Source: Loktanella sp. (GTDB lineage Bacteria > Pseudomonadota > Alphaproteobacteria > Rhodobacterales > Rhodobacteraceae). Taken from it: a DNA stretch of 64,000 bases. The position numbers and the translations under genes are program-made. The number at the start of each line of letters is the position of its first letter. Position 1 is the first letter of the stretch. The notes beneath the pieces are model-generated. The model did no database searches, was not told where the DNA came from, and saw only the letters and a program-made list of their open reading frames with translations. Where the stretch lies: the NCBI GenBank assembly GCA_017390475.1, contig JAFPBO010000008.1:124001-188000 (forward strand). Direction: 5' to 3'. Below are positions 3,605 through 27,266 of the stretch, one piece after another.

Positions 3605-4258
3605 CTACCCACCCGCCATCGTCGCGTCGAATGTCTGCCGCAGTGCCACGTCGAGATCATCCATGCTGACCGGCAGGCCCAGATCGACCAAGGATGTCAC
3701 GCCGTGGTCGCGGATGCCGCAGGGGACGATCCCGTCGAAATGCGACAGGTCCGGGTCCAGATTGATCGAGATGCCATGGAAAGAGACCCATTTGCGCATA
3801 CGGATGCCAATGGCGGCGATCTTATCCTCGGCGACCTTGCCATCGGCACTGCGCGGCTTTTCCGGGCGCTGTACCCAGACACCGACGCGGCCTTGCCGGA
3901 TTTCACCCTTCACGTTGAATGTGTCCAGCGTGCCGATCACCCAGTTTTCCAGATCCTGCACGAAACGGCGCAGGTCATGGCCGCGTTTGCCGACATCCAG
4001 CATCACATAGACCACCCGTTGCCCTGGCCCGTGATAAGTATATTCGCCGCCGCGCCGCGCCTCATAGACCGGGAAACGGTTAGGGCTGATCAGATCGGCG
4101 GCCTTGGCCGAGGTGCCGGCCGTGTAAAGCGGGGGATGTTCCAGCAGCCAGATACATTCATCCGCCGTGCCTGCGATGATCGCATTCACGCGGTCTTCCA
4201 TGAAGGCCAGCGCCTGCGGGTATGCGGTCAACTCGTCGCTGATGATCCAGTCAATCAT
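3605..4258 (-). CDS. lipB: Lipoyl(octanoyl) transferase LipB
   Basis: The enzyme moves octanoyl groups from acyl carrier protein to lipoyl domains of 2-oxoacid dehydrogenases and the glycine cleavage H protein; it is cytosolic. The 217-residue length is normal. The family signature [13 protein letters not shown] lies at 68-80, the catalytic lysine is K146 in DKIAAIGIR, and the acyl-accepting cysteine is C180 in PCGI. Its stop codon abuts that of the convergent OLD gene with no spare bases. The upstream neighbour on the same strand is the LytTR protein, 3 bp away, so the two may be cotranscribed. No lipA is present in the window. Confidence 0.96.
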
Positions 4259-4261
4259 ATG

Positions 4262-9236: not shown

Positions 9237-9448
9237 AGTTCAACACCTGAATTATTAACGGGCCATCAAAGAGCAAAAACCCGGGGTGTTCCCAGACTGC
9301 CCAATAATTCCGCAGTCTCAAAGCGGTTTTTTCGGAAATGTGGCGATTTTTATTTTGACAAGTAAATTTAATATGGCATTTTGGTCCGCGTAGGGTCGAG
9401 CGACCCACACCCTCACTGCATGAGGGCCGCATTTTCTGGGAGGAATAC
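9237..9448. promoter_or_regulatory. Divergent control region of ROK regulator and xyl operon
   Basis: This 212-bp spacer is much more AT-rich than its neighbours. It holds a TTGACA hexamer at 9355-9360 inside an AT-rich run, without a good -10 at standard spacing, and a perfect GGGTCG-AG-CGACCC palindrome at 9393-9406. The ribosome binding site GGAGGA of xylF lies at its right end. Either element could be the repressor's operator; this is inference. Confidence 0.45.
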
Positions 9449-10477
9449 ATGCATAAATCCATCATCGCTGCCGCGATTGCTGTCGCTGGTTTCAATTCTG
9501 CTGCTTTGGCACAGGACCTGACGGTCGGTGTCAGCTGGTCCAACTTTCAGGAAGAGCGCTGGAAAACCGATGAGGCCGCGATTCGCGCCGCTTTGGACGC
9601 TGCTGGCGCGACCTATGTTTCCGCCGATGCGCAATCATCCTCGGCCAAGCAATTGTCCGATGTCGAAAGCCTGATCGCACAGGGCGTTGATGCGCTGATC
9701 ATTCTGGCACAGGACAGCGCCGCCATTGGCCCCGCTGTCGAGGCTGCCGCGAATGAAGGTATCCCCGTCGTCGCCTATGACCGCCTGATCGAAGACCCGC
9801 GCGCCTTTTATCTGACTTTCGACAATGTCGAAGTCGGCCGGATGCAGGCCCGCGCCGTGCTGGAACAGATGCCCGAAGGCAATTATGTCATGATCAAAGG
9901 CTCGCCCACTGACCCGAACGCTGATTTCCTGCGCGGCGGTCAGCAGGAAGTCCTGCAAGAGGCGATTGACAGCGGCGCGATCACCATCGTGGCCGAGGCC
10001 TATACCGATGGCTGGCTGCCTGCCAACGCGCAGCGCAACATGGAACAGATCCTGACCGCCAATGACAATATGGTCGATGCGGTTGTGGCTTCGAACGACG
10101 GCACTGCAGGCGGTGTTGTCGCAGCGCTGACAGCGCAGGGTCTGGAAGGCATTCCAGTTTCCGGTCAGGACGGCGACCATGCCGCGCTGAACCGTGTTGC
10201 TTTGGGGACGCAGACTGTGTCGGTCTGGAAAGACGCCCGCGAACTGGGTCGCGCCGCCGCTGAAATCGCGGTCGCTCTGGCTGCAGCGGATGGCGACATG
10301 GCTGCTGTAGAAGGCAGCCAGACATGGACATCGCCAGCAGGCACCGACATGACTGCGATCTTCCTGGAACCACTGCCGGTGACAGCTGACAATCTGTCTG
10401 ATGTGACCGACGCTGGCTGGATCACCGTAGAAGCTCTCTGTCAGGGTGTGACTGCGGGTCCGGCCCCTTGTAACTAA
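9449..10477 (+). CDS. xylF: D-xylose ABC transporter, substrate-binding protein
   Basis: A periplasmic sugar-binding protein of 342 residues with a cleavable signal peptide (AALAQ at about 18-22). The mature start LTVGVSWSNFQEERWKTDE matches the XylF group of the periplasmic binding protein 1 family, as do VVAYDRLI, FDNVEVGRMQA and VVASNDGTAGG. It delivers xylose to XylH and XylG. It is the first gene of the xylose operon, with a strong GGAGGA site, and is separated from xylH by a hairpin region likely to favour its higher expression. Confidence 0.95.
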   Translation: MHKSIIAAAIAVAGFNSAALAQDLTVGVSWSNFQEERWKTDEAAIRAALDAAGATYVSADAQSSSAKQLSDVESLIAQGVDALIILAQDSAAIGPAVEAAANEGIPVVAYDRLIEDPRAFYLTFDNVEVGRMQARAVLEQMPEGNYVMIKGSPTDPNADFLRGGQQEVLQEAIDSGAITIVAEAYTDGWLPANAQRNMEQILTANDNMVDAVVASNDGTAGGVVAALTAQGLEGIPVSGQDGDHAALNRVALGTQTVSVWKDARELGRAAAEIAVALAAADGDMAAVEGSQTWTSPAGTDMTAIFLEPLPVTADNLSDVTDAGWITVEALCQGVTAGPAPCN

Positions 10478-10484
10478 GCCCGTG

Positions 10485-10505
10485 GCGGCGGGGTTCACCC
10501 GCCGC
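10485..10505 (+). repeat. Hairpin after xylF (1)
   Basis: GCGGCGGG (10485-10492) and CCCGCCGC (10498-10505) form an 8-bp stem with loop GTTCA. It resembles the hairpin at 19414-19431. It has no T-run, so mRNA 3'-end protection is more likely than termination. Confidence 0.5.
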
Positions 10506-10510
10506 GGTCA

Positions 10511-10544
10511 GGGGCCCTGCCGATGTGCAGGGCCCCGATTTTCC
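10511..10544 (+). terminator. Strong hairpin between xylF and xylH (possible partial terminator)
   Basis: GGGGCCCTGC (10511-10520) and GCAGGGCCCC (10527-10536) form a 10-bp GC-rich stem with loop CGATGT, followed by GATTTTCC. Such hairpins after binding-protein genes commonly cause partial termination or stabilise the upstream mRNA, giving excess XylF over the membrane subunits. Confidence 0.65.
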
Positions 10545-10602
10545 TTTTCATGCAAACCCTCGGCCGCTGACCTTGCGCAATCGGCTGCGATGGAGCACCT
10601 TT

Positions 10603-11898
10603 ATGTCTGATGAAACCGCCACTGCGCCCAGCGATGCGCGACGGTCCTTTTTTAAAACGCTTGAAGTCGATACCCGCCTGTTGGGTATGATTGGAGCGCT
10701 GATCCTGATCTGGGTCGTCTTCCATATCTGGTCGGACCAGCGGTTTCTGACACCGCGCAATATTTTCAACCTGTCGATCCAGACCGTTTCCGTGGCGATC
10801 ATGGCCACCGGCATGGTCTTTGTGATCGTGACCCGCCACATTGATCTGTCGGTAGGGGCCTTGCTGGCGACCACCACGGCAGTGATGGCGATCACGCAGA
10901 CCCAGTTTCTGCCACAGATCTTCGGGCTGGAAATCGGTCATCCGATGATCCCCTGGATCACCATTGCCGCGGGTATTCTGACCGGTGCGCTGATCGGGGC
11001 GTTTCAGGGCTATCTGATCGGCTATCAGATGATCCCCGCCTTTATCGTCACTTTGGGCGGTCTGTTGATCTGGCGCAACGTTGCCTGGCACCTGACCAAT
11101 GGCCAGACCATCGGGCCGCTGGATCAGACCTATATGCTGTTTGGTGGGATCAACGGTACATTGGGCATTTTCTGGAGCTGGATTTTCGGCCTGATTGCTG
11201 CTGCTGCGGCGGCTGTCGGTATTCTGCTCGCGCGTCGGACCAAGATCAGCCATGGTTTTTCGGTCAAGCCGCTTTGGGCCGAAGCGGTCGTGATCGCTGT
11301 CGTTATCGCAGCGATCCTTGGTTTTGTCGCGGTGCTGAATGCCTATGCTGTGCCGGACCGCGTGATTGCGCGCGAATTTGAACGCTGGGGCTGTACCGCA
11401 GTGGAAAACTGCACGGCTGGTTATGGCATTCCCTATTCGGTGCTGCTGCTGATTGCCGTGGCTGTGGTGATGACGATCATCGCACAGCGCACCCGTCTGG
11501 GCCGCTACATTTTTGCCACCGGCGGCAACCCCGATGCGGCGGAACTGTCCGGCATCAATACAAAGCTTCTGACGGTCAAGATTTTCGCCATGGTCGGGAT
11601 GCTTTGTGCGCTTGGTGGGATCGTCGCCTCGGCCCGGCTGGGGTATCATACCAATGATATCGGCACGCTGGACGAACTCCGCGTCATCGCTGCAGCCGTC
11701 ATTGGCGGCACCGCACTCGCTGGCGGGATCGGCACGATCTATGGCGCGATCATCGGTGCGCTGATCATGCAATCCTTGCAATCGGGCATGGCGATGGTCG
11801 GGGTCGATGCGCCCTATCAGAACATCGTGGTGGGCCTTGTGCTGGTCCTCGCCGTCTGGATCGACATCCAGTATCGCAAATATTCAGGAGCGAAATGA
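10603..11898 (+). CDS. xylH: Sugar (D-xylose) ABC transporter permease
   Basis: This is the inner-membrane permease of the xylose importer, 431 residues from ATG 10603, which has GGAG 8 bp upstream. About ten hydrophobic helices are visible, with the family signatures TRHIDLSVGALL, FIVTLGGLLIWRN and GNPDAAELSGIN, and a late VIGGTALAGG segment. An upstream in-frame extension to 10525 covers the intergenic hairpin tail and is unlikely to be translated. It overlaps xylG by 4 bases (ATGA), which indicates coupled translation. Confidence 0.94.
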   Translation: MSDETATAPSDARRSFFKTLEVDTRLLGMIGALILIWVVFHIWSDQRFLTPRNIFNLSIQTVSVAIMATGMVFVIVTRHIDLSVGALLATTTAVMAITQTQFLPQIFGLEIGHPMIPWITIAAGILTGALIGAFQGYLIGYQMIPAFIVTLGGLLIWRNVAWHLTNGQTIGPLDQTYMLFGGINGTLGIFWSWIFGLIAAAAAAVGILLARRTKISHGFSVKPLWAEAVVIAVVIAAILGFVAVLNAYAVPDRVIAREFERWGCTAVENCTAGYGIPYSVLLLIAVAVVMTIIAQRTRLGRYIFATGGNPDAAELSGINTKLLTVKIFAMVGMLCALGGIVASARLGYHTNDIGTLDELRVIAAAVIGGTALAGGIGTIYGAIIGALIMQSLQSGMAMVGVDAPYQNIVVGLVLVLAVWIDIQYRKYSGAK

Positions 11899-12644
11899 TG
11901 ACACCCCTTGTGCAGATGAAAGATGTCTCGATCTCATTCGGTGGGGTCAAGGCGGTGGATCACGTGAGCATCGACCTATATCCCGGTGAAGTTGTTGGTC
12001 TTTTGGGTCATAACGGTGCTGGTAAATCGACGCTGATCAAGATCCTGTCCGGTGCCTATAAGATGGATTCTGGCGAGATCTGGGTCGAAGGCAAAAAGGT
12101 CGATTTCCAATCGCCGCGCGACAGTCGCGACCATAATATCGAAACGATCTATCAGACTTTGGCCTTGGCCGATAACCTTGACGCGGCATCGAACCTGTTT
12201 CTGGGCCGCGAACTGACCACGCCTTTTGGCTTTGTCGATGATGGCCGTCAGGAATCCGAGACGCGCAAGATCATGGCCCGTCTGAACCCCAATTTCAAAA
12301 AACTGAAAGAACCCGTGTCGGCCCTGTCCGGTGGCCAGCGACAGTCGGTCGCCATCGCGCGGGCGGTCTATTTCAAGGCCAAGATCCTGATCATGGACGA
12401 ACCGACTGCCGCTTTGGGTGTGCATGAGACCAAGATGGTCGCGGATCTGATTCAGGAATTGAAGGCGCAGGGTCTTGGCATTTTCCTGATCAGCCATGAC
12501 ACGCGCGAGATGATGGAATTGTGCGACCGTGTGTCGGTAATGAAAAACGGACAGGTCGTCGGCACCGAACGTGTCGAGGACGTGACCGAGGATGACATCC
12601 TGTCGATGATCATCATGGGCAAGAATCCTAAAAAGGCAGCGTAA
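11895..12644 (+). CDS. xylG: Sugar (D-xylose) ABC transporter ATP-binding protein, single domain
   Basis: This is the ATPase of the xylose importer. Walker A is GHNGAGKST (about 35-43), the signature is LSGGQRQSVAIARA, and Walker B is ILIMDEPTAALG, followed by an ISHDTREM switch histidine. At 249 residues it holds only one nucleotide-binding domain, whereas the E. coli XylG/RbsA/AraG type carries two fused domains (about 500 residues), so this subunit must act as a homodimer. It overlaps xylH by 4 bases and shares one base with xylB (TAATG). Confidence 0.93.
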   Translation: MMTPLVQMKDVSISFGGVKAVDHVSIDLYPGEVVGLLGHNGAGKSTLIKILSGAYKMDSGEIWVEGKKVDFQSPRDSRDHNIETIYQTLALADNLDAASNLFLGRELTTPFGFVDDGRQESETRKIMARLNPNFKKLKEPVSALSGGQRQSVAIARAVYFKAKILIMDEPTAALGVHETKMVADLIQELKAQGLGIFLISHDTREMMELCDRVSVMKNGQVVGTERVEDVTEDDILSMIIMGKNPKKAA

Positions 12645-14083
12645 TGTTTATCGGACTTGATCTGGGGACCTCCGGTCTCAAAGCTGTTTTGATAGACGTC
12701 AATCAAAACATCCTTGCCGAAGCGTCAGCACCGCTAGAGGCGACGCGCCCGCACAGCGGCTGGTCCGAACAGGACCCCGCGACATGGTTGGATGCGGCGG
12801 ATACGGTAATGCGTGATCTGGGGGCGCAGGTGTCGCTGGCTGACGTCAAGGCCATCGGCCTGTCCGGCCAGATGCATGGCGCGACTTTGCTGGATGCCGA
12901 TGACAATGTGCTGCGCCCCTGCATTCTGTGGAACGACACTCGCTCTGCCGTGGAAGCCGCCGAACTGGACGCCGACCCGCGTTTCCGCGCACTGACCGGC
13001 AATATCGTCTTTCCGGGTTTCACCGCGCCGAAACTTGTCTGGGTGGCGAAACATGAACCCGACATCTTCGCCAAGGTCGCCCGCGTGCTGCTGCCCAAAG
13101 ATTACCTGCGCCTGTGGCTGACAGGCGAGGCGGTCGCCGAAATGTCCGACGCGGCTGGCACAAGCTGGCTGGATGTGGCGAAGCGCGACTGGTCAGATGA
13201 TCTGCTTGCTGCGACCAGCCTGACCCGCGCGCAGATGCCGCGCCTTGTCGAAGGCTCCGAAGTCTCGGGGCAGGTGCGGGATCAACTCGCCAGCCGCTGG
13301 GGCTTGCCGCAGGGTGTCGTCGTGGCAGGTGGTGGCGGTGACAATGCCGCAAGTGCTGTGGGCGTGGGCGTGGTCAAGGCGGGCGATGCTTTCGTCTCGC
13401 TCGGCACCTCTGGCGTGCTCTTTGCGGCCAGCGACGCCTATAACCCCGATGCCGCCAGCGCCGTGCATACGTTCTGTCATGCCTTGCCGGATACATGGCA
13501 CCAGATGGGCGTGATCCTCGCTGCCGCTGATGCGCTGAACTGGTTTGCCAAGGTCGCGGATAAACCTGCCGCCACCCTGACCAGCGGTTTGGGCGCGTTG
13601 CAGGCCCCCGGCAAGCCGCTGTTCCTGCCTTACTTGGGCGGCGAACGGACCCCGCATAATGATGCGGCGATCCGCGGCGCGTTCCTGCATCTGGACCATG
13701 CGACCGACAGCCAGGCCATGGCCCGCGCCGTGCTGGAAGGGGTGACGCATGCGATCCGCGATTGCCATGATGCGCTGACCAGCACCGGCACCAAGATCAA
13801 CCGCCTGATCGCGGTCGGCGGCGGGTCCAAATCCGATTACTGGGTGCAAGCGATTGCCACATCGCTTGATCTGCCGATTGAACTGCCCGTCGCGGGTGAT
13901 TTCGGCGGGGCCTTTGGCGCCGCTCGCCTTGGCCTGATGGCCGCAACCGGCGCAGGGGCCGAGGTCGCGACCGCACCGAAGATCGCTCGCACCATTGACC
14001 CTGACACCAAACTGACAGCGGCTTTTGCCGAGGCCCATGCGCGTTACCGCGCCAGCTATATCGCACTGAAAGGACTATCATGA
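12644..14083 (+). CDS. xylB: Xylulokinase
   Basis: The enzyme phosphorylates D-xylulose to D-xylulose 5-phosphate, feeding the pentose phosphate pathway. It is an FGGY-family kinase of 479 residues. The N-terminal phosphate-binding motif is [13 protein letters not shown], then [11 protein letters not shown] and ILWNDTRS appear with the substrate aspartate, and the C-terminal adenosine motif is [13 protein letters not shown]. The start codon overlaps the xylG stop, and the gene overlaps xylA by 4 bases. Confidence 0.96.
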
Positions 14084-15381
14084 CCGATTTCTTCAAAGGC
14101 ATCCCCGCCATCACCTACGAAGGCCCGGACAGCGACAATGATTTCGCCTTCCGCCAATACAACCCCGAAGAGGTTGTGATGGGCAAAAAGATGAAAGATC
14201 ACCTGCGCTTTGCGGCTGCCTATTGGCATTCCTTTGCCTGGCCGGGCGGTGACCCGTTTGGTGGGCAGACCTTTGATCGACCATGGTTCGGCGACAGCAT
14301 GGATCTGGCCCGGATGAAGGCTGATGTCGCCTTCGAGATGTTCCAGATTCTGAACGTGCCTTATTTCTGTTTCCACGACGCCGATGTGCGGCCCGAAGGT
14401 GCTGATTTCGCCGAAAACACCCGCAACCTGGAAGAGATCGTCGATTATTTCGCCGAAAAAATGGAAGCGACCGGTGTCAAACTGCTCTGGGGCACGGCGA
14501 ACCTGTTCTCGCACAAGCGCTTCATGTCCGGTGCCGCGACGAACCCTGACCCGGATGTGTTCGCGTTTTCAGCCGCGACGATCAAGACCTGCATGGACGC
14601 GACCATGAAACTGGGCGGTGAAAACTACGTCCTCTGGGGTGGTCGTGAAGGCTATGAAACCCTGCTCAACACCGATATGGGCCGCGAACGCACCCAGGCG
14701 GGCCGGATGTTGCAGATGGTCGTCGACTACAAGCACAAGATGGGCTTCAAGGGCGCGATCCTGATCGAACCGAAACCGCAAGAACCGGCCAAGCATCAAT
14801 ATGACTACGATGTCGCAACGGTTTACGGCTTCTTGAAGGAGTTTGGCCTGGAGGGCGAGGTCAAGGTCAATGTCGAACAGGGCCATGCCATTCTGGCGGG
14901 CCATTCGTTTGAACATGAACTGGCGATGGCGCGGGAATTGGGGATTTTCGGCTCGATCGACATGAACCGCAATGATTATCAATCCGGCTGGGATACCGAC
15001 CAGTTCCCGAACAATGTGCCCGAAATGGCGCTGGCCTATTACGAGATGCTGCGCGCCGGTGGCTTCACCACGGGCGGCACCAATTTTGACGCCAAACTGC
15101 GCCGTCAGAGCCTTGATGCAGAGGATCTGATCCTCGCCCATGTCGGCGGGATGGATGCCTGTGCAGCAGGGCTGAAGGCTGCGGCGGCGATGCTGGAAGA
15201 TGGCAAGCTGGAAGCGGCGCGTAATGAACGCTACGCAGGTTGGGATACCGATGCGGGCAAGGCGCTGCTCGACAGTGATCTGGATGCGATCACCGCGCGC
15301 GTGCAGTCTGAGGGGATCAACCCACAGCCTCGCTCTGGCCGTCAGGAACGGTTGGAAAATCTGGTCAATCGCTACCTGTGA
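14080..15381 (+). CDS. xylA: Xylose isomerase
   Basis: The enzyme converts D-xylose to D-xylulose in the cytosol using two divalent metals. At 433 residues it belongs to the longer class II isomerases. Signatures visible are the [12 protein letters not shown] segment with the catalytic histidine and aspartate, [32 protein letters not shown] with metal ligands, and SIDMNRND. It is the last enzyme gene of xylFHGBA and is followed by a palindrome at 15399. Confidence 0.97.
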
Positions 15382-17700: not shown

Positions 17701-19413
17701 ATGCATATCCCATTCGCCCGTTACCTGCCCATTCTGTCCTGGGGGCGGGATTATTCCCGGTCCGACCTTGGCAATGACCTGACCGCTGCCTTTATCGTGA
17801 CGATCATGCTGATCCCGCAATCTTTGGCCTATGCCTTGCTGGCGGGGTTACCAGCCGAGGCGGGGCTTTATGCCTCGATCGTGCCGATCATGCTGTACGC
17901 TGTTTTCGGAACCAGCCGCAGTCTGGCCGTGGGGCCGGTGGCGGTGGTATCGCTGATGACGGCAGCCGCGCTCAGCAATATCGTTGACCAAGGCAGTATG
18001 GGCTATGCCGTCGCCGCGCTGTCGCTGGCCGGGCTGTCGGGGGCGATCCTGCTGGCGATGGGGCTGTTCCGGCTGGGGTTTGTCGCCAATTTCCTGTCAC
18101 ATCCGGTGATTGCGGGATTCATCACCGCCTCGGGCCTGATCATTGCGGCAAGTCAGATCAAGCATATTTTCGGGATCACCGCCGATGGGCATAACCTGCT
18201 GGATCTGATCATATCACTGGGCAGTAATCTGGGTGGGATCAACTGGATCACCGCGCTGATCGGCCTGCTGGCGACGGGGTTTTTGTTCTTTGTGCGCAAA
18301 GGGCTGAAACCATTGCTGACCAAACTCGGCCTAGGCGCCGGTCTGACCGGATTTCTGGTCAAGCTGGGGCCGATTGTCGTGGTCATCGCAACCACCGCTG
18401 CTGTCTGGTATTGGGGGCTGGACGCGCGCGGCGTCAGGATCGTCGGCGCAGTCCCGCAGAGCCTGCCGCCCTTTACCCTGCCATCGCTTTCTCCTGCATT
18501 GCTGAGCCAGCTCCTGCTGCCCGCCTTTCTGATCGCGATCATTGGTTTTGTGGAATCGATCTCCGTCGCACAGACGCTCGCTGCCAAAAAGCGCCAACGC
18601 ATCGACCCGGATCAGGAATTGATCGGGCTGGGGGCGGCGAATATCGGCGCGGCCTTTACCGGCGGCTTTCCGGTCACGGGCGGTTTTGCGCGCTCGGTCG
18701 TGAATTTCGACGCCGGTGCAGCAACGCCCGCCGCCGGGGCCTTTACCGCTGTGGGTCTGGCGATTGCCGCCGTCGCGCTGACGCCGCTGATCTATTTCCT
18801 GCCCATCGCTACGCTGGCTGCGACCATCATTGTCGCGGTTCTCAGCCTCGTGGATTTCTCGATCCTTAGACGCAGCTGGTCCTACAACCGTGGCGATTTC
18901 GCCGCTGTCCTGACCACGATCCTGTTGACCCTGGCCATGGGGGTCGAGGCCGGGATTTCCGCCGGTGTCCTGCTGTCGGTGTTGCTGCATCTTTACCGGT
19001 CGTCCAGGCCGCATATCGCCGAAGTCGGGCAGGTCCCCGGCACCGAACATTTCCGCAATATCCTGCGCCATGACGTGATCACCCATCCCGGCATCGTGAG
19101 CTTGCGGGTGGACGAGAGCCTTTACTTTGCCAATGCGCGCTATCTGGAGGATTGCATTCAGACCCGCGTCGCACGCGACAAGGACGTGCGACACGTGATC
19201 CTGCAATGTGCGGCGATCAACGAGATTGATTTCAGCGCGCTGGAATCTTTGGAGGCGATCAATGAAAGGTTGCGCGAAATGGGTGTGCAATTGCACCTGT
19301 CAGAGGTGAAAGGGCCAGTGATGGACCGGCTTGCCGCACAGCATTTCCTGCAGCAATTGTCGGGCCGGGTGTTTTTGTCGCAATTTGAGGCGGTGCAGAA
19401 GATATCCGCGTAG
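17701..19413 (+). CDS. SulP-family anion (sulfate) permease with STAS domain
   Basis: An inner-membrane anion transporter of 570 residues. Ten or more hydrophobic helices occupy about 20-420; the SulP signature lies in the first helices (IPQSLAYALLAGLPAEAGLY) and TGGFPVTGGFARSVVN is conserved. The C-terminal STAS domain (about 440-560) contains AAINEIDFSALESLEAI. Substrates in the family include sulfate, bicarbonate and other anions, and the exact one cannot be read here. The DUF2892 and Crp/Fnr neighbours favour a sulfur oxyanion. Two hairpins follow the stop. Confidence 0.9.
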   Translation: MHIPFARYLPILSWGRDYSRSDLGNDLTAAFIVTIMLIPQSLAYALLAGLPAEAGLYASIVPIMLYAVFGTSRSLAVGPVAVVSLMTAAALSNIVDQGSMGYAVAALSLAGLSGAILLAMGLFRLGFVANFLSHPVIAGFITASGLIIAASQIKHIFGITADGHNLLDLIISLGSNLGGINWITALIGLLATGFLFFVRKGLKPLLTKLGLGAGLTGFLVKLGPIVVVIATTAAVWYWGLDARGVRIVGAVPQSLPPFTLPSLSPALLSQLLLPAFLIAIIGFVESISVAQTLAAKKRQRIDPDQELIGLGAANIGAAFTGGFPVTGGFARSVVNFDAGAATPAAGAFTAVGLAIAAVALTPLIYFLPIATLAATIIVAVLSLVDFSILRRSWSYNRGDFAAVLTTILLTLAMGVEAGISAGVLLSVLLHLYRSSRPHIAEVGQVPGTEHFRNILRHDVITHPGIVSLRVDESLYFANARYLEDCIQTRVARDKDVRHVILQCAAINEIDFSALESLEAINERLREMGVQLHLSEVKGPVMDRLAAQHFLQQLSGRVFLSQFEAVQKISA

Positions 19414-19465
19414 GGCGGGGTTTACCCCGCCACCCGTGAAATAGGTCGGGGAGAACCCCGACCTA
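19414..19465. terminator. Two tandem hairpins between convergent sulP and TRAP genes
   Basis: The first hairpin is GGCGGGG (19414-19420) / CCCCGCC (19425-19431), loop TTTA. The second is TAGGTCGGGG (19442-19451) / CCCCGACCTA (19456-19465), loop AGAA, followed by CATTTTCC. They separate two convergent transcription units and probably act in both directions. Confidence 0.7.
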
Positions 19466-19474
19466 CATTTTCCA

Positions 19475-20530
19475 TCAGTTCAGATCAGCCTCATAGGCAC
19501 CAGCCAAATCAGCCTCAACCTCGGCCACGGCCTCTTGCAGCGCGGCGAGGATTTCCGGTCCGCCCTGCACATTGGCGCTGAACCAATCGTGCACAGGGGC
19601 TGCGGCTTCGGCGAACAGCGCTTTTTCTTCCGGTGATGGCACATAAAGATCACCACCACCGGCGAGGAATGCCTCATAGGCTTCGATCGACTTGCGCTTG
19701 GGGGATGCGAATGTCGCCTGTTGCAGCGCATAGAACCCATCCACTACGACGCGGCGCAGGTCCTCTGGCATCGACAGAAACATTTCGTTGTTCATCCACC
19801 AGATCGCGCCCATATAGCTGTGCCCGTCCAGCGTCAGATATTGCAGCCCGGCATCGGGGAATTTCATGTTCATGATATCGGTGATGCCATTGGCGGTGCC
19901 TTCGACAACGCCCGTCTGCAACGAGGTGAACAATTCCGGCCATTGGATCGGGGTGGCAGAGGCGCCCATCGATTCCACCAGTTGGATCGGCAGGTCGGCG
20001 ACCACGGTGCGCAGTTTCAGCCCTTGCAGATCGGCGGGGGTCTGGACGCGGCGCTGGGTATTGGCAAAGTTGCGCCAGCCGCCGGTATTGCCGATGGTCA
20101 TCAGGCGGATCGTGTCGCCGCTGTCAGCCAGCGCCATATCGCGCATGGTGCGGACGAAATCGCCCGACAGCACGGCCTCTGCCACGCGGTCGCTGGACAT
20201 CAGATAGGGCAGGTCAAGCACCTGCACATAGGGGAAAATCCCCGCTGCACCGCCGGAGGTCGAGATATAGACGTCAATGGACCCTTCGGACACGCCTTCA
20301 AGGCATTCTTCACCGGTCGCGCAAAGCTGGGTGCCGATGAACAATTCCACCGCGATCTGACCGTTTGATGCGGCTTCGACATAATCCTTGAACACGACAA
20401 GACCGTCGTAGTCTTCGTCATCGGTATTGGAATTGGCTGTCGCGCGGATCGTGAACTCCTGTGCGGTCAAAGCCATTGGCGTGACAAGTGCGGCGGCTGT
20501 TGCTGCGACTTTTGTTAGTTTATTCAGCAT
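19475..20530 (-). CDS. TRAP transporter substrate-binding protein (DctP family)
   Basis: A periplasmic solute receptor of 351 residues. It has a signal peptide ending near LTAQE, a strong GGGAGG ribosome binding site, and the family motifs TQLCATGEECLEGVSEGSID, GLKLRTV, ATPIQWPELFTSLQTGVVEG and YLTLDGHSYMG. TRAP receptors bind carboxylates, sulfonates and other small acids. It is the last gene of a leftward operon beginning with a flavin monooxygenase, which suggests that the TRAP system imports the substrate of that monooxygenase. Confidence 0.93.
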   Translation of the reverse strand: MLNKLTKVAATAAALVTPMALTAQEFTIRATANSNTDDEDYDGLVVFKDYVEAASNGQIAVELFIGTQLCATGEECLEGVSEGSIDVYISTSGGAAGIFPYVQVLDLPYLMSSDRVAEAVLSGDFVRTMRDMALADSGDTIRLMTIGNTGGWRNFANTQRRVQTPADLQGLKLRTVVADLPIQLVESMGASATPIQWPELFTSLQTGVVEGTANGITDIMNMKFPDAGLQYLTLDGHSYMGAIWWMNNEMFLSMPEDLRRVVVDGFYALQQATFASPKRKSIEAYEAFLAGGGDLYVPSPEEKALFAEAAAPVHDWFSANVQGGPEILAALQEAVAEVEADLAGAYEADLN

Positions 20531-20556
20531 ATTATCCTCCCAGTGGATGCTGTGAA

Positions 20557-22125
20557 TTACTGTACCGGCACGGGGCTGATACAGGCGGAAAAGCCGACCT
20601 CTGGGCCGCAGCCCAGAAAGCCTGCCAGATATGGCACTGTCATCGAAATGGCAGGGACATAGGTAATCAGGAAAATCACCAGGATTTCGACCGCAAGGAA
20701 CGGCAGTATCGCCTTTGCAATGGTTTCGACCCTTTCGCCCGATACAGTCGAGGCGACGAATAACACCAGCCCCATCGGTGGTGTGGCGAGGCCCACGGTG
20801 AGGTTGACGCTCATGATGATGGCGAAATGCACCGGATGCACGCCCATCTCGACGAAGATCGGTCCAAGGATTGGCCCCAGAATGATGATTGCCGGACCCG
20901 CATCAAGGAACATGCCGACGATGAACAACAAAATATTGATCAAAAACAGCAGGATCAGCGGATTTTCCGACAACGACAGGATATAGTCCGACAGTATCTG
21001 CGGCGCATATGACAAGGCGACGACAGTTTTGAATGCGACGGCAGCACCGACCAGCAACAGCACGGCCGATGTCGCTAGTGCTGAACGCGTCAGCACGCCT
21101 GACAGGTCGCGCAATTTCATCGAGCGCAGCACGAAGAAGGACACGATCAGCGCATAGGCAACGGCAACAGCCGACGCTTCGGTCGGGGTGAAGACACCGA
21201 CCAGAATGCCGCCAAGAATGATGATCGGGGTTTGCAATGGGGCGACCGCCTTTTTGCAGACCATGCGGAAATCATGGGTGACCCGCTTGCGATATCCCAT
21301 CAGAATGTAATGCGACGCCACAAGCAGCGCGGCAAATACAACCCATAGGTTCAGCGCATGTACCGTATCACCGGCGGCATCCACGCTGGCCAACCCGACT
21401 GGCCCGGCAATCAAAGAATAAAGCGCGATCAGCAGCCCTGCCAGATTGATCCGCAGCAGGGCAAAGCTGACCCAATATTCCACCGGGGTGATGGCCTGAC
21501 CCTTGCTGACGATCCGTTCCGCCTTGGGCAGGTCATAGCGATCAGCCATCAGCCGCACCATCACCATCAACCCGACGCCCACCAGAATGCCCGGCACGAT
21601 CCCTGCCAGAAACAGCGAGGCTACGCTTTCGCCCATCACATAGGCATAGATGATCATGATGCCCGATGGCGGGATGATCGGCCCGATGACGGAACTGGCA
21701 GCGGTGATCGCGGCGGCAAAACGGCGGGTATAGCCGTTCTTTTCCATCGCGGGGATCATGGTAGATCCGATGGCCGAAGTATCGGCGACGGCGGACCCGG
21801 ACAGACCCGCGAACAGCATGGAAGACAGGATATTCACATGCGCCAGCCCGCCGCGCAGATGCCCCATGAAGGCTTGCGCGAATTCCACCAGCCGCATGGT
21901 GATGCCGCCGCGGTTCATGATTTCGCCCGCCAGCATGAAGAACGGCAGCGCCATCAGCGGAAAGGAATCCATCCCGTTGTAAAGATTGCGGTAAAGGCCT
22001 GCGATTACATTGCGGGTATCGCCTTCGGCCATGATCATCGCGAAAGGGGCTGCCATCAGCGCAAAGACCACGGGCAGGCCGATCATGATCAGGATCAGGA
22101 AAAGTGGCAGGAAAAGGGTCAGCAT
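20557..22125 (-). CDS. TRAP transporter large permease (DctM family)
   Basis: This is the membrane subunit that moves solute with Na+ or H+. At 522 residues it is longer than the usual ~430 residues because of an insertion of about 100 residues in the middle (AGLLIALYSLIAGPVGLASVDA and following), containing extra hydrophobic helices. Signatures include PFFMLAGEIMNRGGIT, GLSGSAVADTSAIGSTMIP, IIPPSGIMIIYA and NLTVGLATPPMG. Its start overlaps the DctQ stop (TAATG), so the two membrane subunits are translationally coupled. Confidence 0.93.
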   Translation of the reverse strand: MLTLFLPLFLILIMIGLPVVFALMAAPFAMIMAEGDTRNVIAGLYRNLYNGMDSFPLMALPFFMLAGEIMNRGGITMRLVEFAQAFMGHLRGGLAHVNILSSMLFAGLSGSAVADTSAIGSTMIPAMEKNGYTRRFAAAITAASSVIGPIIPPSGIMIIYAYVMGESVASLFLAGIVPGILVGVGLMVMVRLMADRYDLPKAERIVSKGQAITPVEYWVSFALLRINLAGLLIALYSLIAGPVGLASVDAAGDTVHALNLWVVFAALLVASHYILMGYRKRVTHDFRMVCKKAVAPLQTPIIILGGILVGVFTPTEASAVAVAYALIVSFFVLRSMKLRDLSGVLTRSALATSAVLLLVGAAVAFKTVVALSYAPQILSDYILSLSENPLILLFLINILLFIVGMFLDAGPAIIILGPILGPIFVEMGVHPVHFAIIMSVNLTVGLATPPMGLVLFVASTVSGERVETIAKAILPFLAVEILVIFLITYVPAISMTVPYLAGFLGCGPEVGFSACISPVPVQ

Positions 22126-22721
22126 TATTCGGCCCCCGCCATTTGTTCCGGTTTGAATGATGTCAGCCGGTTGCCCTGACCGCAGAGCGTAATCACCTGC
22201 CGCAGCATCAGTTCGGCATTCACCGCGATCAGCAGATTTACCCCGACCCAGAGCGAGGCATATTGGTAATTATTCTGGAACCGCGCGCCGCAACGCCCGA
22301 TCTCGATTCCGAAAGGCCAGCGCAGGCTGGCCGAACAGCCGCGCCCGGACAACGTGTCGAGATGGTTGTTCAATCCACGCTCCCAGGCGATGATCAGGAC
22401 CCAGAGCGAAATCGCCAGCAGCAGCAAGCTCAGCAGCCCCGCCAGCAGCCGGGGCAGGGCGCGTTCCAGCATATCAATCGCGACAAACCCGCCCATGCGA
22501 TAGACCAGCGGTGCCATCAGCCCGGTCATCCAGAGCATGCCGAACCGCGCGCCTTCTTCGGTCCAGTTCGGTGCCGCGTTCAGGACATAACGAAAAAAGA
22601 CCTGGCCTAGGATCAAAGCCACCATGACGGTCAATGCCGCGATCGCGATGATCTTGCCAATTGCAAGAACCGCGGTGTTGAACCGCTCCAGCGGCCACAA
22701 GATACCAAACAGGACCGACAT
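22125..22721 (-). CDS. TRAP transporter small permease (DctQ family)
   Basis: The small membrane subunit, 198 residues, with four hydrophobic helices and the family-type WTEEGARFGMLWMTGL motif. The start at 22721 has a good GGGAGGAG site. There is a loop of about 40 residues (LDTLSGRGCSASLRWPFGIE) between helices 3 and 4 that is longer than in most DctQ proteins. It begins the transporter part of the leftward operon, 88 bp after the flavin reductase gene, with three small hairpins in between. Confidence 0.9.
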   Translation of the reverse strand: MSVLFGILWPLERFNTAVLAIGKIIAIAALTVMVALILGQVFFRYVLNAAPNWTEEGARFGMLWMTGLMAPLVYRMGGFVAIDMLERALPRLLAGLLSLLLLAISLWVLIIAWERGLNNHLDTLSGRGCSASLRWPFGIEIGRCGARFQNNYQYASLWVGVNLLIAVNAELMLRQVITLCGQGNRLTSFKPEQMAGAE

Positions 22722-22744
22722 CGGCTCCTCCCCTGTTCATGTTG

Positions 22745-22791
22745 CGGGCCTGCGGCCCGTTCGGGGCGCTGCCCCCTTGCCCCTGCGGGGC
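22745..22791. repeat. Cluster of three small GC hairpins
   Basis: The hairpins are CGGGCC-TGC-GGCCCG (22745-22759), GGGGC-GCT-GCCCC (22763-22775) and GCCCC-TGC-GGGGC (22779-22791). The identical TGC-type loops and tandem layout suggest a REP-like palindromic element. It sits between the flavin reductase and dctQ-type genes, where it may adjust the ratio of enzyme and transporter expression. Confidence 0.55.
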
Positions 22792-22809
22792 AATTCCCCC
22801 GGGATATTT

Positions 22810-23319
22810 TTACTCTGAAGATGGATGATGTGGTGCGAAAGTGCCGTATTGGCCGCCATGAAAGGTTAGCGGCGCGCCGTCGGTGAAATGGGCTTTGGTC
22901 ACGCGGCCGATGATGATGACATGGTCACCGGCATCATGGCTGGTCTCGAAATTGCATTCAAAGGTTGCCAAAGCGCCCGCGATGATCGGGAGGCCGCAAT
23001 GCGACAGATGCGTCGGCACCTGGCGGATCGCGGTTTTGGAGCCGAGCACCGCAGCGCAGATATCGCGTTGATCTGCTGCCATGACATGAATGGCAAAGCG
23101 CTGGGCATCCACGAAATGCGCAAAACGCTTGGAGGCTTTCGCCGGCGACCACAGCACAAGCGGCGGATCGAGCGAGACACTGGCAAAACTATTCGCGACG
23201 ATACCGATCGGCCCTTCGGGGCTGTCGGTGGTGATCACTGTCACCCCGGTGGTGAACGCCCCAAGGGCGCTGCGGAAATTGCTGCTGTCGGTCTGCGGAT
23301 CGAATGTCTGAAGCGTCAT
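22810..23319 (-). CDS. Flavin reductase family protein (FMN reductase partner of monooxygenase)
   Basis: This 169-residue NAD(P)H:flavin reductase carries the conserved GAFTTGVTVITT, NSFASVSLDPPLV and the late HHP ending of the DIM6/NTAB fold. Such proteins supply reduced FMN to two-component flavin monooxygenases. Its start overlaps the aldo/keto reductase stop (ATGA), and the monooxygenase is two genes upstream, so the three are one coupled unit. In the sulfo-SMO pathway the corresponding protein is SmoA. That assignment is by gene neighbourhood and family, not by alignment. Confidence 0.9.
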   Translation of the reverse strand: MTLQTFDPQTDSSNFRSALGAFTTGVTVITTDSPEGPIGIVANSFASVSLDPPLVLWSPAKASKRFAHFVDAQRFAIHVMAADQRDICAAVLGSKTAIRQVPTHLSHCGLPIIAGALATFECNFETSHDAGDHVIIIGRVTKAHFTDGAPLTFHGGQYGTFAPHHPSSE

Positions 23320-24206
23320 GGAACTTCCTGGCCAAGGGCTGCGGTATAGAGTGTGAACCAGGTTTCACGGTCCATCGTAACTTTCAATGCGTCAGAAAGC
23401 GTTTTGATCCGCGCGATATTATTGGTCCCCATTACGGGCATGATCCGCGCCGGATGCGCCAGTAACCAAGCCACGGCGACCGCTGATTTGTCAACGCCCT
23501 GTGTGGCGGCAACCCTTGCCAGCGCGTCCTGCACCGCGCCGTCGCCGGTCATCAGCGCGCCACCGCCCAAGGGCGACCATGCCATGACCGGCACGCCGCA
23601 TTCCTGGCAAAAGGCGATATCGCCGTTGGTGAAGGCGTGATGCGCGCTTAGTGATGCCTCGATCTGGTTGGTCACCAGTGTCGTCTGCATTGCCGATTGC
23701 AGCAGGGTCCAGTCGTGTCGTTTGAAGTTGGATACACCGATGCTGCGGACCTTGCCCGCTGCCACCAGCCCGTCCAGCGCCGCGCCGGTTTCGTGATGAT
23801 CCATGAACGGATCAGGCCGGTGGACCAGCAAAGTGTCGATCCGGTCAATACCCATCAGCCGCAGCGAATGATCGACCGACGCAGTGATATGGGTCGCTGA
23901 CGTATCGTAATGTTTGACCCTGGCACCGGCATAGCGCCCGGCAGGGGCGACGATACCGCATTTCGTCACGATTTCGATCTGGTCTTTCAGGGCAGGGGCC
24001 GCGCGCAGGGCATTGCCGAGCACCTCTTCGGCTTCATAGCCGCCATAGATATCTGCCTGATCCATCGTGGTGATGCCCTGTTCCAGACAAGCCTCGATCT
24101 TGGCCTGCACATGGGCGGGGCTGGTGTCGCTGTCATCGCCCAGCCGCCACATGCCATAGATGATGCGGCTGAAGGAAAGGTCGTCAGTTATTGTGATACG
24201 GTCCAT
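23316..24206 (-). CDS. Aldo/keto reductase
   Basis: A 296-residue NAD(P)H-dependent reductase with a TIM-barrel fold. The catalytic tetrad is visible: Asp and Tyr in DQADIYGGYEAEE, Lys in IVTKCGI, and His in LLVHRPDP. The cofactor-binding end has MPVMGTNNIARIK. It resembles the YdhF/COG4989 group. Wedged between an SsuD-like monooxygenase and its flavin reductase with overlapping start and stop codons, it probably reduces the aldehyde made by the monooxygenase. SmoB, which reduces 6-oxoglucose to glucose in sulfoquinovose breakdown, is the matching role. Confidence 0.92.
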   Translation of the reverse strand: MDRITITDDLSFSRIIYGMWRLGDDSDTSPAHVQAKIEACLEQGITTMDQADIYGGYEAEEVLGNALRAAPALKDQIEIVTKCGIVAPAGRYAGARVKHYDTSATHITASVDHSLRLMGIDRIDTLLVHRPDPFMDHHETGAALDGLVAAGKVRSIGVSNFKRHDWTLLQSAMQTTLVTNQIEASLSAHHAFTNGDIAFCQECGVPVMAWSPLGGGALMTGDGAVQDALARVAATQGVDKSAVAVAWLLAHPARIMPVMGTNNIARIKTLSDALKVTMDRETWFTLYTAALGQEVP

Positions 24207-25363
24207 TAGCGGCGTGTCCCTGTGCCCAAAGGCGTTGCTGGTGTCTCGGTCGGCACACGACCGTATTCATGCGGCAGCGAGCAGGTTTTCAGATGTGGCA
24301 TCACGCGTTTGCCGAAATGTTCGGCTTCATCGATATGTGGATAGCCGGAAAAGATGAAGGCGCGGATGCCCATTTTCTGATAATCCTCGATCTTGGACAG
24401 AATCTGATCTGTCGATCCGACCAGCGCCGCACCGCAACCCGACCGCGCCCGGCCAATCCCGGTCCAGAGCCCCGGTTCGGTATAGCCGAACTGATCTGCC
24501 AATTCGCGCGCACGTGCCTGATGCGCCACGCCAAGGCTGATGCTGTCATGGGCGCGGTCGCGGATCAGTTTGCCATATTCGTCGTCCAGTTTGCTGGCGA
24601 TGAATTCGGCATATTCCTTGGCCTCTGCCTCTGTGTCACGCACGATCATATGGACGCGCAGGCCATAATCCAGTGTCCGGCCATGGGCAGCAGCGCGGGC
24701 ATGCACATCTTTCATCCGCTGCGCCAGCATATCCTTGGTTTCGGGCCACATCAGATAGACATCACATTGCGCGCCGCAAAGCTCCAGCGCATCTGGCGAA
24801 TAGCCGCCGAAATAGAGCAGGGGTCCGCCGTTTTGCTGATAAGGGCGGGCCGGGTCAGTGCTGAGTTCGGAGATCTGATAGATATCACCGTCATAGCTGA
24901 CGTCATCCTGCGTCCAGCATTTGCGCAGAATTTCAACGACCTCATGACTGCGTTTGTAGCGGTATTTGCTTTCGGCCACTTCACCCGGAAAATCGGAGCT
25001 GATCACATTCAGCGTCAGCCGCCCTTTGAGCATGTGATCCAGTGTCGCAATGGTGCGGGCGAGCATGATTGGCTGGACCTCACCGCAGCGGATCGCGGCA
25101 AGAAAATTGATCTTTTCGGTCAACGGCGCCATCCCCGCGACAAAGGATAAAGTATCCTGACCGACCTGATAGGATGACGGGGCAAGTATATTGCGGAAAC
25201 CCTGCGCCTCGGCGGTCAATGCGATGTCGCGGCAGTGTTCCCATGAGGACCGCAGATCGCCGTCAGGCACGCCCAGGAACTGGTAATCATCCGAACATAA
25301 CGCGGAAAACCAAGACACTTCTGCCGCGTCAAGATCGGCGCTGGTCACAGGCACGATGCTCAA
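24206..25363 (-). CDS. LLM-class flavin-dependent monooxygenase (alkanesulfonate monooxygenase-like)
   Basis: A luciferase-like FMNH2-dependent monooxygenase of about 385 residues, close in size and style to SsuD (FLAAIRCGEVQPIMLARTIATLDHMLKGRLTLN, with the N-terminal SSYQVGQD region). I place the start at TTG 25363 because GGGAGGGG ends 5 bases upstream of it; the in-frame ATG at 25378 overlaps that site and is less likely. It heads the leftward operon with an aldo/keto reductase, a flavin reductase and a TRAP importer. The same three enzyme families form SmoC, SmoB and SmoA in sulfoquinovose desulfonation. The substrate is inferred from this set. Confidence 0.88.
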   Translation of the reverse strand: MSIVPVTSADLDAAEVSWFSALCSDDYQFLGVPDGDLRSSWEHCRDIALTAEAQGFRNILAPSSYQVGQDTLSFVAGMAPLTEKINFLAAIRCGEVQPIMLARTIATLDHMLKGRLTLNVISSDFPGEVAESKYRYKRSHEVVEILRKCWTQDDVSYDGDIYQISELSTDPARPYQQNGGPLLYFGGYSPDALELCGAQCDVYLMWPETKDMLAQRMKDVHARAAAHGRTLDYGLRVHMIVRDTEAEAKEYAEFIASKLDDEYGKLIRDRAHDSISLGVAHQARARELADQFGYTEPGLWTGIGRARSGCGAALVGSTDQILSKIEDYQKMGIRAFIFSGYPHIDEAEHFGKRVMPHLKTCSLPHEYGRVPTETPATPLGTGTRR

Positions 25364-25464
25364 TGATTCCCCTCCCATGGTCTCTTTGATTGCACTTGCG
25401 TAGCACGAGAATCTGTGTGCAACAATAGTGTATCAATTTGTGGCGCGCCGGGGAGGGGCAGGCC

Positions 25465-26172
25465 ATGGCAACAACCTCAGCCTTGCCGAAATTCGTGCAG
25501 ATCAGCGAAATGCTGATCCGTGAAATTGCAGCCGGCCATCTGGCCGATGGTGCCCGCCTGCCGCCTGAACGCGAGATGGCCGAGGATCTGGGAATCGCAG
25601 TCGGCACATTGCGCAAGGCACTGGCCGATGTCGCAGCCAAGGGTCTGCTGGAACGGGTGCAAGGGTCCGGCAATTATGTCCGCCGCCGTGAGCAGGTGGA
25701 TTCGGTCTATGCCTTCTTCCGGCTTGAACTCAAACGCGGCGGCGGTCTGCCCACGGCAGAGGTCGTGTCGGTCGATCTGCTGCCGAAACCCGGCGATGCG
25801 CCACATTTTGGTGACCATAGCCATGGCCACCGGATCAGACGGTTGCGCCGTCTGGGCGGCACGTTGATCGCGGTCGAGGAGATCTGGCTGGACGCGGGGG
25901 CCTGCGATGTGATCGGGGAAAATGATCTGCTGGAATCCCTGTATCTGTTCTACCGCGACCGGCTCGGGCTGGTGATCGCCGCAGCCGAGGACCGAATTGG
26001 CATCGCGCAATTGCCGGACTGGACGCCAGAGGCGTTTCATCTGCCCGCAGGTGCCGTCACGGGTTATATCGAACGCAATTCTTATCTGGCTGGCCGGGTG
26101 CCTGTCGAATTTTCGCGCACATGGTTCGATACGGACCGGGCGCAATATGTTTCACGCATGGGAAAAGGGTGA
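25465..26172 (+). CDS. GntR-family (HutC/UTRA) transcriptional regulator
   Basis: A 235-residue regulator with an N-terminal winged helix (LPPEREMAEDLGIAVGTLRKAL, then GLLERVQGSGNYV) and a C-terminal UTRA-like ligand domain (RIRRLRRLGGTLIAVEEIW). ATG 25465 has a strong GGGAGGGG site; an earlier in-frame start at 25438 is unlikely. It is divergent from the monooxygenase operon and overlaps the Gfo/Idh/MocA gene by 4 bases. It most likely controls both directions and responds to the imported sugar or a breakdown product. Confidence 0.9.
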   Translation: MATTSALPKFVQISEMLIREIAAGHLADGARLPPEREMAEDLGIAVGTLRKALADVAAKGLLERVQGSGNYVRRREQVDSVYAFFRLELKRGGGLPTAEVVSVDLLPKPGDAPHFGDHSHGHRIRRLRRLGGTLIAVEEIWLDAGACDVIGENDLLESLYLFYRDRLGLVIAAAEDRIGIAQLPDWTPEAFHLPAGAVTGYIERNSYLAGRVPVEFSRTWFDTDRAQYVSRMGKG

Positions 26173-27266
26173 TCAACGTGCAGATGGTGAACTACGGGCT
26201 GGTCGGCTGCGGCATGATGGCCCGCGAACATATTCAGAATATCAATCTGTTGCCGCATGGGCGGGTCAGCGTGGTCTATGACCCGGTGCCGGAACTCGCG
26301 CAGGCGGCTGCCGCGCTGGCCTGTGGTGCTCAGATTGCGGATAGTCTGGATGATCTGCTGGCCTTTGCCGCGCTGGATGCTGTCGTGATCGTCAGTCCCA
26401 ACCATCTGCATGTGCCGCAATTGCAGCAGATCGTAGCGACGCGGCCGCTGCCGATCCTGTGCGAAAAGCCGATCTATACCAACCCGTCCGAGGCCCCTTT
26501 GCTGGACGCATTATTCGCCGATTATCCGCATCCTGTCTGGGTCGCGATGGAATATCGCTATATGCCGCCCGTCGCAGCCTTGGTCGCGCAGGCCGAGGCC
26601 GCGACGGGTGCCGTCAAAATGCTGACCATCCGCGAACACAGGTTTCCGTTCTTGCCAAAGGTCGGCGACTGGAACCGGTTCAACGCCAAGACCGGCGGGA
26701 CAATGGTGGAAAAATGCTGTCACTTTTTCGATCTGATGCGGCTGATCCTGCAGGACGATCCGGTCCGCGTGATGGCCAGTGCCGGGCAGGCGGTAAACCA
26801 TATCGACGAACGTTATGGCGGGCAGGTGCCTGATGTCTGGGACCACGGCTATGTCATCGTCGATTTTGCGCGCGGCAGCCGGGCGATGCTGGAACTTTGC
26901 ATGTTTGCCGAAGGATCGCGCTATCAGGAAGAAATCAGCGCTGTCGGCCCAACCGGCAAGATCGAGGCGCTGGTGCCCGGACCGGGCCGGTTCTGGCCCA
27001 CGGCCTTGGGCGAACCGCCGGTACCGCAGCTGATCATCAGCCCGCGCGACCCCAAAGGGCCGTTCGTGTCAGAAATCCCGGTTGATCCGACCCTGCTGGA
27101 CGCGGGCGATCACAACGGATCAACTTTCTATCAGCACCAGCGGTTTAACGCCGTGGTGCGCGGTGCAGGCGAGGTTGAGGTCAGCCTGCACGATGGCGCG
27201 ATGGCCGTAGCGATGGGGATCGCAGCGCAGGACAGCGCACACACAGGGCAGGCTGTTATCTTTTAA
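26169..27266 (+). CDS. Gfo/Idh/MocA-family NAD-dependent protein, candidate glycosidase or dehydrogenase
   Basis: About 365 residues with an N-terminal Rossmann fold (GLVGCGMMAREHI), the family EKP motif in CEKPIYTN, and a C-terminal Gfo/Idh/MocA domain (GGTMVEKCCHFFDLMR). The GTG start at 26169 overlaps the GntR stop (GTGA); ATG 26184 is the alternative. Ordinary family members oxidise sugars. However, sulfosugar gene clusters without a classical GH31 sulfoquinovosidase often carry an NAD-dependent glycosidase that works by transient C3 oxidation. The absence of any GH31 gene here makes that reading attractive. Whether this protein is in that family needs sequence comparison. Confidence 0.85.
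   Translation: MINVQMVNYGLVGCGMMAREHIQNINLLPHGRVSVVYDPVPELAQAAAALACGAQIADSLDDLLAFAALDAVVIVSPNHLHVPQLQQIVATRPLPILCEKPIYTNPSEAPLLDALFADYPHPVWVAMEYRYMPPVAALVAQAEAATGAVKMLTIREHRFPFLPKVGDWNRFNAKTGGTMVEKCCHFFDLMRLILQDDPVRVMASAGQAVNHIDERYGGQVPDVWDHGYVIVDFARGSRAMLELCMFAEGSRYQEEISAVGPTGKIEALVPGPGRFWPTALGEPPVPQLIISPRDPKGPFVSEIPVDPTLLDAGDHNGSTFYQHQRFNAVVRGAGEVEVSLHDGAMAVAMGIAAQDSAHTGQAVIF

Follow-up and report, generated by a model that had tools for sequence, protein, structure and literature searches.

By which importer do sulfoquinovose (SQ) and its glycosides reach the enzymes that cut them, when the genes beside those enzymes encode a tripartite ATP-independent periplasmic (TRAP) transporter in place of an ATP-binding cassette (ABC) importer? 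The question is raised by positions 19475..27266 of a 64,000-nt stretch (the window) of Loktanella sp. contig JAFPBO010000008.1. A sequence-only reading had described a leftward trio of SsuD-like monooxygenase, aldo/keto reductase and flavin reductase followed by TRAP genes, divergent from a GntR regulator and a Gfo/Idh/MocA protein, and had proposed SQ catabolism by the sulfoquinovose monooxygenase (sulfo-SMO) route. An open reading frame (ORF) check found all eight genes where that reading had placed them, with the same order and divergence. The leftward run is tightly packed (SmoC, SmoB, flavin reductase, DctQ, DctM, DctP). We consider it very probable that the locus is a complete sulfolytic operon for sulfoquinovosides, in which TRAP-imported SQ or its glycoside is cut to glucose and sulfite. 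The eight genes are as follows.

19475..20530, minus strand: DctP, TRAP solute-binding protein of the SQ-associated clade; secretion signal judged by eye.
20557..22125, minus strand: DctM, TRAP large permease (TIGR00786, 399 bits, cut-off 268).
22125..22721, minus strand: DctQ, TRAP small permease, which adjoins DctM and is conserved there across TRAP loci.
22810..23319, minus strand: SmoA-like flavin reductase (Flavin_Reduct, PF01613, 122 bits).
23316..24206, minus strand: SmoB-like aldo/keto reductase (PDB 7bby/7bbz, 443 bits).
24206..25363 (longest ORF ends at 25378), minus strand: SmoC, predicted FMNH2-dependent SQ monooxygenase (7olf/7oh2, 740/712 bits).
25465..26172 (longest ORF from TTG 25438), plus strand: GntR/HutC-type regulator (NCBIfam matches below cut-off).
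26184..27266, plus strand: predicted GH188 NAD+-dependent sulfoquinovosidase, SqgA-type (8zn9, 513 bits; 8qc2/8qc3, 375/371 bits).

The importer was followed across a family sample of 248 genomes, one per genus, with three queries: SmoC, DctP and an SQ-isomerase-like protein encoded at a TRAP locus. SmoC was present in 106 genomes (threshold 1e-100; five of the matches have an in-frame stop as read, one of these being a fragment), the DctP clade in 86 (at least 65% identity, with three weaker matches at 38–49% set aside), and the isomerase in 22. The 86 genomes with the DctP clade comprised 63 with SmoC, 21 with the SQ-isomerase-like gene of a sulfo-Embden–Meyerhof–Parnas (sulfo-EMP)-type pathway, and 2 with neither. 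The clade therefore tracks SQ markers genome-wide, being found in 84 of 128 genomes with a pathway marker versus 2 of 120 without (Fisher P 3e-30), which bears out the earlier view that a TRAP transporter takes the place of the ABC importer here. When only genomes lacking SmoC were compared, the clade was found in 21 of 22 with the isomerase-like gene versus 2 of 120 without (P 8e-22), and the lone isomerase genome without it (G209) has a DctP at 49%. SmoC and the isomerase never occurred in one genome (0 observed, 9.4 expected; P 2e-6), indicating that two unrelated routes share the importer. The DctP clade and SmoC were found together in 63 of the 248 genomes against 36.8 expected, and lay 2.1–3.8 kb apart in 59 of the 63 (in the other four they are on different contigs), so the arrangement is not due to chance. 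Adjacent to SmoC in 59 of the 106 SmoC genomes, TRAP is the commonest importer beside sulfo-SMO genes in the family sample and not an exception. In the window, the importer consists of DctP, DctM and DctQ, the last assigned by position and conservation only, as an NCBIfam search with DctQ gave no match. No ABC importer of the Agrobacterium type was found among the eight genes of 19475..27266, which leave no room for one.

A class-wide sample of 385 genomes from 276 genera (at least five in the family of the window, four of these also in the family sample) gave SmoC at 70% or more in 9 genomes, DctP at 72% or more in 11, and both in 8, in two of which they lie on different contigs. In 12 further genomes from other families of the class, SmoC-like proteins at 50–53% were found without this DctP; this group consists of G256, G265, G367, G369, G389, G470, G472, G494, G556, G574, G578, and G600 (loci L164–L175). 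Among public genomes, the best 80 of 241 SMO loci, a selection biased to close relatives, yielded a DctP frame from 56 and GH188 from 78, with contig ends counted as misses. TRAP-bearing SMO loci span Rhizobium, Peteryoungia, and Pannonibacter in addition to Rhodobacteraceae.

All 23 loci of genomes with the DctP clade and without SmoC were examined, with the three weaker DctP loci alongside. In 15 of the 23, the isomerase-like protein, a PfkB kinase, and a DeoC/LacD aldolase were found nearby; each of the 15 has GH188, and some of these loci also contain a mutarotase, aldehyde dehydrogenase, DeoR, or MauG-like cytochrome. The sole NCBIfam match of the isomerase-like protein is sulfoquinovose isomerase SftI, below cut-off. 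The other eight genomes vary (G014, G040, G048, G059, G126, G143, G201, and G226): six have both GH188 and the isomerase at some place in the genome, which in G059 is beside TRAP, and two have neither.

A DctP tree was built by a quick method; besides the window, it took in 29 of the 56 DctP-bearing SMO loci, all 23 TRAP-only loci, and three long-branch outgroup rows. The 53 clade members formed one branch with support of 100, and many inner branches were weak. SMO context was not confined to one branch: it required 3 changes, of which well-supported branches force at least 2, and the EMP label required 5, with at least 3 forced. The mean identity of DctP to that of the window was 74.8% in EMP context (n = 15) and 75.8% in SMO context (n = 56), whereas that of GH188 fell from 72.5% in SMO context (n = 78) to 51.5% in EMP context (n = 15); the SMO loci in this comparison had been selected by closeness of SmoC. 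Since DctP similarity stays level across contexts while GH188 similarity falls, the importer appears to follow a shared substrate and not the enzymes, and, read most simply, what the two pathways have in common is the cargo.

These results suggest, with good but not overwhelming probability, that the clade is a dedicated sulfosugar TRAP subfamily, the first known for a sulfonated sugar, defined by its cargo and not by a pathway. It would have been passed between SmoC-type and sulfo-EMP-type SQ degradation in alphaproteobacteria, carrying intact sulfoquinovosyl glycerol to a cytoplasmic GH188, often in company with a di-haem MauG-like cytochrome. Many relatives have such a cytochrome (CCP_MauG, about 590 aa) next to their SQ TRAP or SMO genes (L103:7285-9057, with homologues in L002, L023, L068, L087, L100, L105, L106, L115, L134, and L150). 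Its best NCBIfam match, below cut-off, is the His-Xaa-Ser-associated MauG-like protein, and no MauG-like cytochrome was found in the genome of the window. Among TRAP loci, a PhyH-family dioxygenase, which could provide an alternative oxygenolytic step, stands with MauG at L105:7994-8758, L094:8413-9105, L089 (~3640), and L097 (~11725). L091, L098, and L107 combine TRAP with SmoB (60–67%), and in two of the three with SmoA, in genomes without SmoC at 1e-100; L098 also has a Rieske ring-hydroxylase alpha subunit (3510-4673, minus strand) upstream of SmoB on the opposite strand.

The enzymes were compared with PDB sequences. SmoC matched 7olf at 739.9 bits and 7oh2 at 711.7 bits, with MsuD/SsuD next at no more than 200.3 bits, and was 72–78% identical to the 7olf and 7oh2 chains by structure alignment. 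Both entries, 7olf being from Agrobacterium tumefaciens, are titled as FMNH2-dependent monooxygenases of oxidative desulfurization; the title of 7oh2 names sulfoquinovose, and that of 7olf, as displayed, breaks off after 'sul'. The proposed check on whether the monooxygenase falls with enzymes for unrelated substrates thus placed it with the SQ monooxygenases, as the sequence-only reading had anticipated. Residues W211, R241, H243, R312, Y346, and H348, hand-aligned to the SsuD active site and presumably with the roles that they have there, were invariant in all 125 rows (the window, the copy in its own genome, and 123 further loci). SmoC is therefore predicted to release sulfite from SQ.

The earlier SmoB assignment agrees with the structure matches, 443 bits for the best (7bby/7bbz) and 216 for the runner-up. 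We take 7bby and 7bbz, which carry the name aryl-alcohol dehydrogenase, to be Agrobacterium SmoB structures. D52, Y54, K82, and H129, which we take to be the aldo/keto reductase tetrad, were invariant in all 124 aligned rows (the window, the copy in its own genome, and 122 further loci), and SmoB may convert 6-dehydroglucose to glucose. The flavin reductase, an HpaC/FerA-type protein (PDB 4xhy, 138 bits; best NCBIfam match FerA, 189.5 bits, under a cut-off of 260), was assigned as a SmoA-like partner by its Flavin_Reduct family and its overlap with SmoB. The coupling proposed for the trio was recovered as overlaps of 1 nt between SmoC and SmoB (TAATG) and 4 nt between SmoB and SmoA (ATGA), and DctQ and DctM also overlap by 1 nt. 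SmoC and SmoB are thus encoded together, adjacent and overlapping, by which sulfo-SMO clusters are recognized (PMC13372026; papers are cited by PubMed Central accession, those marked † for the part of their text covered here, as this one is†).

With regard to the Gfo/Idh/MocA protein, the earlier label stood for gene and family, and a role is now added, that of a gateway sulfoquinovosidase, GH188. The protein scores higher to 8zn9, titled putative oxidoreductase, than to 8QC2 and 8QC3, the NAD+-dependent sulfoquinovosidases SqgA (Kaur et al. 2023, PMC10755693†). The sugar-site residues given there (Lys107, Tyr136, Glu189, His193, and His321) and the sulfonate site (Arg166/Leu170/Lys172) are kept in the window as K116, Y145, E197, H201, and H331 and as R174, L178, and K180 (mapped by hand). 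The ninth listed residue shared with SqgA, E172, sits next to the Glu163 of that paper by hand count. All nine were invariant in the 138 rows that reached 40% identity: the window, the copy in its own genome, and 136 further loci. This gene is thus predicted to encode a GH188 NAD+-dependent sulfoquinovosidase, and with catalytic and sulfonate-binding residues intact the locus would run from glycoside to glucose. Because no secretion signal was seen by eye and NAD+ is required, cleavage is probably cytoplasmic, so that the importer would have to carry the glycoside, at least in part; its cargo is likely SQ or sulfoquinovosyl glycerol.

Regulation and the remaining features were assessed around three further elements.

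25423..25438, minus strand: conserved box AATTGATACACTATTG, probable GntR operator (sole genome copy, recurrence at other loci).
22722..22809, no strand: 88-bp SmoA–DctQ spacer with a G+C-rich stem-loop (hairpin and downstream element, 22786-22811).
19442..19465, no strand: terminator-like hairpin between DctP and a convergent SulP gene (pattern match only).

The 16-bp box is in the SmoC–GntR gap, and about 60 bp separate it from the proposed SmoC start downstream. At up to two mismatches, the whole genome (4.13 Mb) holds this one copy, and a reversed control gave none. At 106 of 123 other loci, all of which differ in SmoC sequence, the box is again found no more than 250 bp from the start of SmoC; such counts are inflated by kinship of the loci. 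No box was found at up to three mismatches in the 15 EMP-type TRAP-only loci. The TRAP-only loci with the box at two mismatches, L091 and L100, carry a GntR (58–62%) and GH188 (66–68%) of the window type, and L105 has one match at three mismatches. In L117, GntR and SmoC are apart, and an exact copy of the box stands beside GntR. The box thus moves with the regulator, as expected of an operator, and AATTGATACACTATTG is a probable operator of this GntR, whose displayed NCBIfam matches are to PhnF/HutC-type regulators.

The following scheme may be proposed. DctP would capture and DctQM transport the substrate, bringing SQ and most likely the glycoside sulfoquinovosyl glycerol into the cell, where GH188 would free SQ by NAD+-dependent C3 oxidation, elimination, and hydration. 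SmoC, with O2 and FMNH2 from the flavin reductase, would cut the C–S bond to give sulfite and 6-dehydroglucose, which SmoB would reduce to glucose, and GntR would govern both directions through the single box between SmoC and GntR. In this scheme we infer the DctP ligand, the energy coupling, GntR binding to the box, the sign of regulation, and the fate of sulfite.

Several observations weigh against this interpretation. Residues 200-222 of DctP, which we take to be part of the expected binding region, are weakly modelled. The P values treat genomes as independent, ignoring kinship, and the isomerase became a marker only once it had been noticed beside TRAP. This TRAP clade is missing from 43 of the 106 SmoC genomes (all 43 examined); ABC or major facilitator superfamily genes lie near SmoC in some of them, so the importer is an exchangeable part, and several show no importer with the probes used. 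At the thresholds used, G048 has none of SmoC, GH188, and isomerase, and G226 has only SmoB. At L105 and L089, TRAP stands with the PhyH dioxygenase and MauG-like cytochrome without adjacent SQ enzymes, and these genomes carry GH188 and isomerase elsewhere. Finally, the box is absent at two mismatches from 17 of the 123 loci.

If the enzymes degrade SQ, TRAP might import another solute, such as an isethionate-like short sulfonate or a sugar acid, with SQ entering otherwise. The solved TRAP proteins nearest to DctP in fold, at just 16–26% identity, have isethionate, sugar acids, and other compounds as ligands, so the fold of DctP does not fix its ligand; elsewhere among bacteria, taurine, sulfolactate, and isethionate are the proposed cargoes of TRAP importers, SQ not being among the solutes named (PMC10507020† and PMC6386719†); and the 43 SmoC genomes above manage without this TRAP. 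However, a clade that tracks two unrelated SQ pathways, is nearly absent elsewhere, and lies so close to SmoC makes an unrelated cargo unlikely. It is more doubtful still that the enzyme set acts mainly on a different 6-sulfosugar. Sulfofucose, for example, is used by a Paracoccus, via a different pathway (PMC12421959†), whereas SmoC is closely similar to chains titled SQ monooxygenases and adjoins a GH188 with SQ-binding residues. A sulfur-starvation alkanesulfonate module of the SsuD type, not serving sugar use, is scarcely credible: NCBIfam SsuD models do match SmoC, at 241 bits against a cut-off of 518, but SmoC is far closer to the SQ monooxygenases, and SmoB and GH188 would be left without a role. 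Uptake of SQ or its glycoside through TRAP, followed by sulfolysis, is thus the reading that we retain.

Start sites were judged by eye. The SmoC start is most likely TTG 25363 and not the upstream ATG 25378, because relatives have ATG at the former position and the latter codon runs into what is likely the ribosome-binding site. For GntR the probable start is ATG 25465, and for GH188 it is ATG 26184, past the GntR stop at 26172. The 88-bp spacer is the sole sizeable gap in the leftward run. The downstream element of its hairpin, CCCCCGGGATATTTTT (22796-22811), occurs at seven places in the genome at up to one mismatch, and hairpin and element are possibly a dispersed repeat. Convergent to DctP, a SulP-family permease (window 17701-19413) could transport sulfate formed when sulfite is oxidized; among the best 80 of 241 SMO loci it was seen only in L004 and L005, some contigs (e.g. 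L001) being too short. A xylose-type operon at window 7971-15381 (ROK regulator, periplasmic sugar-binding protein, permease, ATPase, FGGY kinase, and xylose-isomerase-like protein) is probably unrelated to the SQ locus.

TRAP importers are driven by ion gradients and not by ATP, which would suit high-affinity SQ uptake from dilute water, and the DctP clade may serve as a second, pathway-independent genome marker for SQ users. SQ is an abundant sugar of plant sulfolipid. Its annual production is estimated at 10 billion tons (PMC10755693†), and the sulfo-SMO route serves to degrade it in rhizobia and in bacteria of the Roseobacter clade (PMC13372026†). In the sulfoquinovose and sulfosugar literature searched, a search without some key papers, no link between TRAP and SQ uptake was found. 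The word 'trap' is absent from the main texts of PMC13372026, PMC12890257 (a 2026 review), and PMC9594981, and in the parts covered of PMC12421959, PMC6278857, PMC11659671, PMC12133307, and PMC11968277 it denotes a column, an instrument, or a verb. The main text of PMC10755693 is without 'trap', 'transporter', or 'importer', and its supplementary gene tables may list TRAP. The sulfo-SMO literature, in the parts covered, does not state the SQ uptake route in Roseobacter relatives.

Among known systems, the isethionate TRAP binding protein IseP (8t9t, 8te9) is 23–24% identical to DctP, and its cargo is a C2 sulfonate, not a sugar. The sulfo-SMO system of A. tumefaciens (sulfo-ASMO) shares with the window SmoC, a SmoB-like reductase, and a flavin reductase. 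We take its sulfoquinovosidase to be a GH31 enzyme encoded within the cluster. The Agrobacterium system uses an ABC importer, for sulfoquinovosyl glycerol, and a sulfoquinovosidase from A. tumefaciens has been characterized (PMC9594981†), whereas the locus of the window has TRAP and GH188. The Roseobacter-clade sulfo-SMO clusters, in which GH188 is near-universal, share the SmoABC-type genes and GH188 with the window (PMC10755693†). The pathway enzymes are thus already known; the importer is the new part, and its TRAP form is widespread rather than rare.

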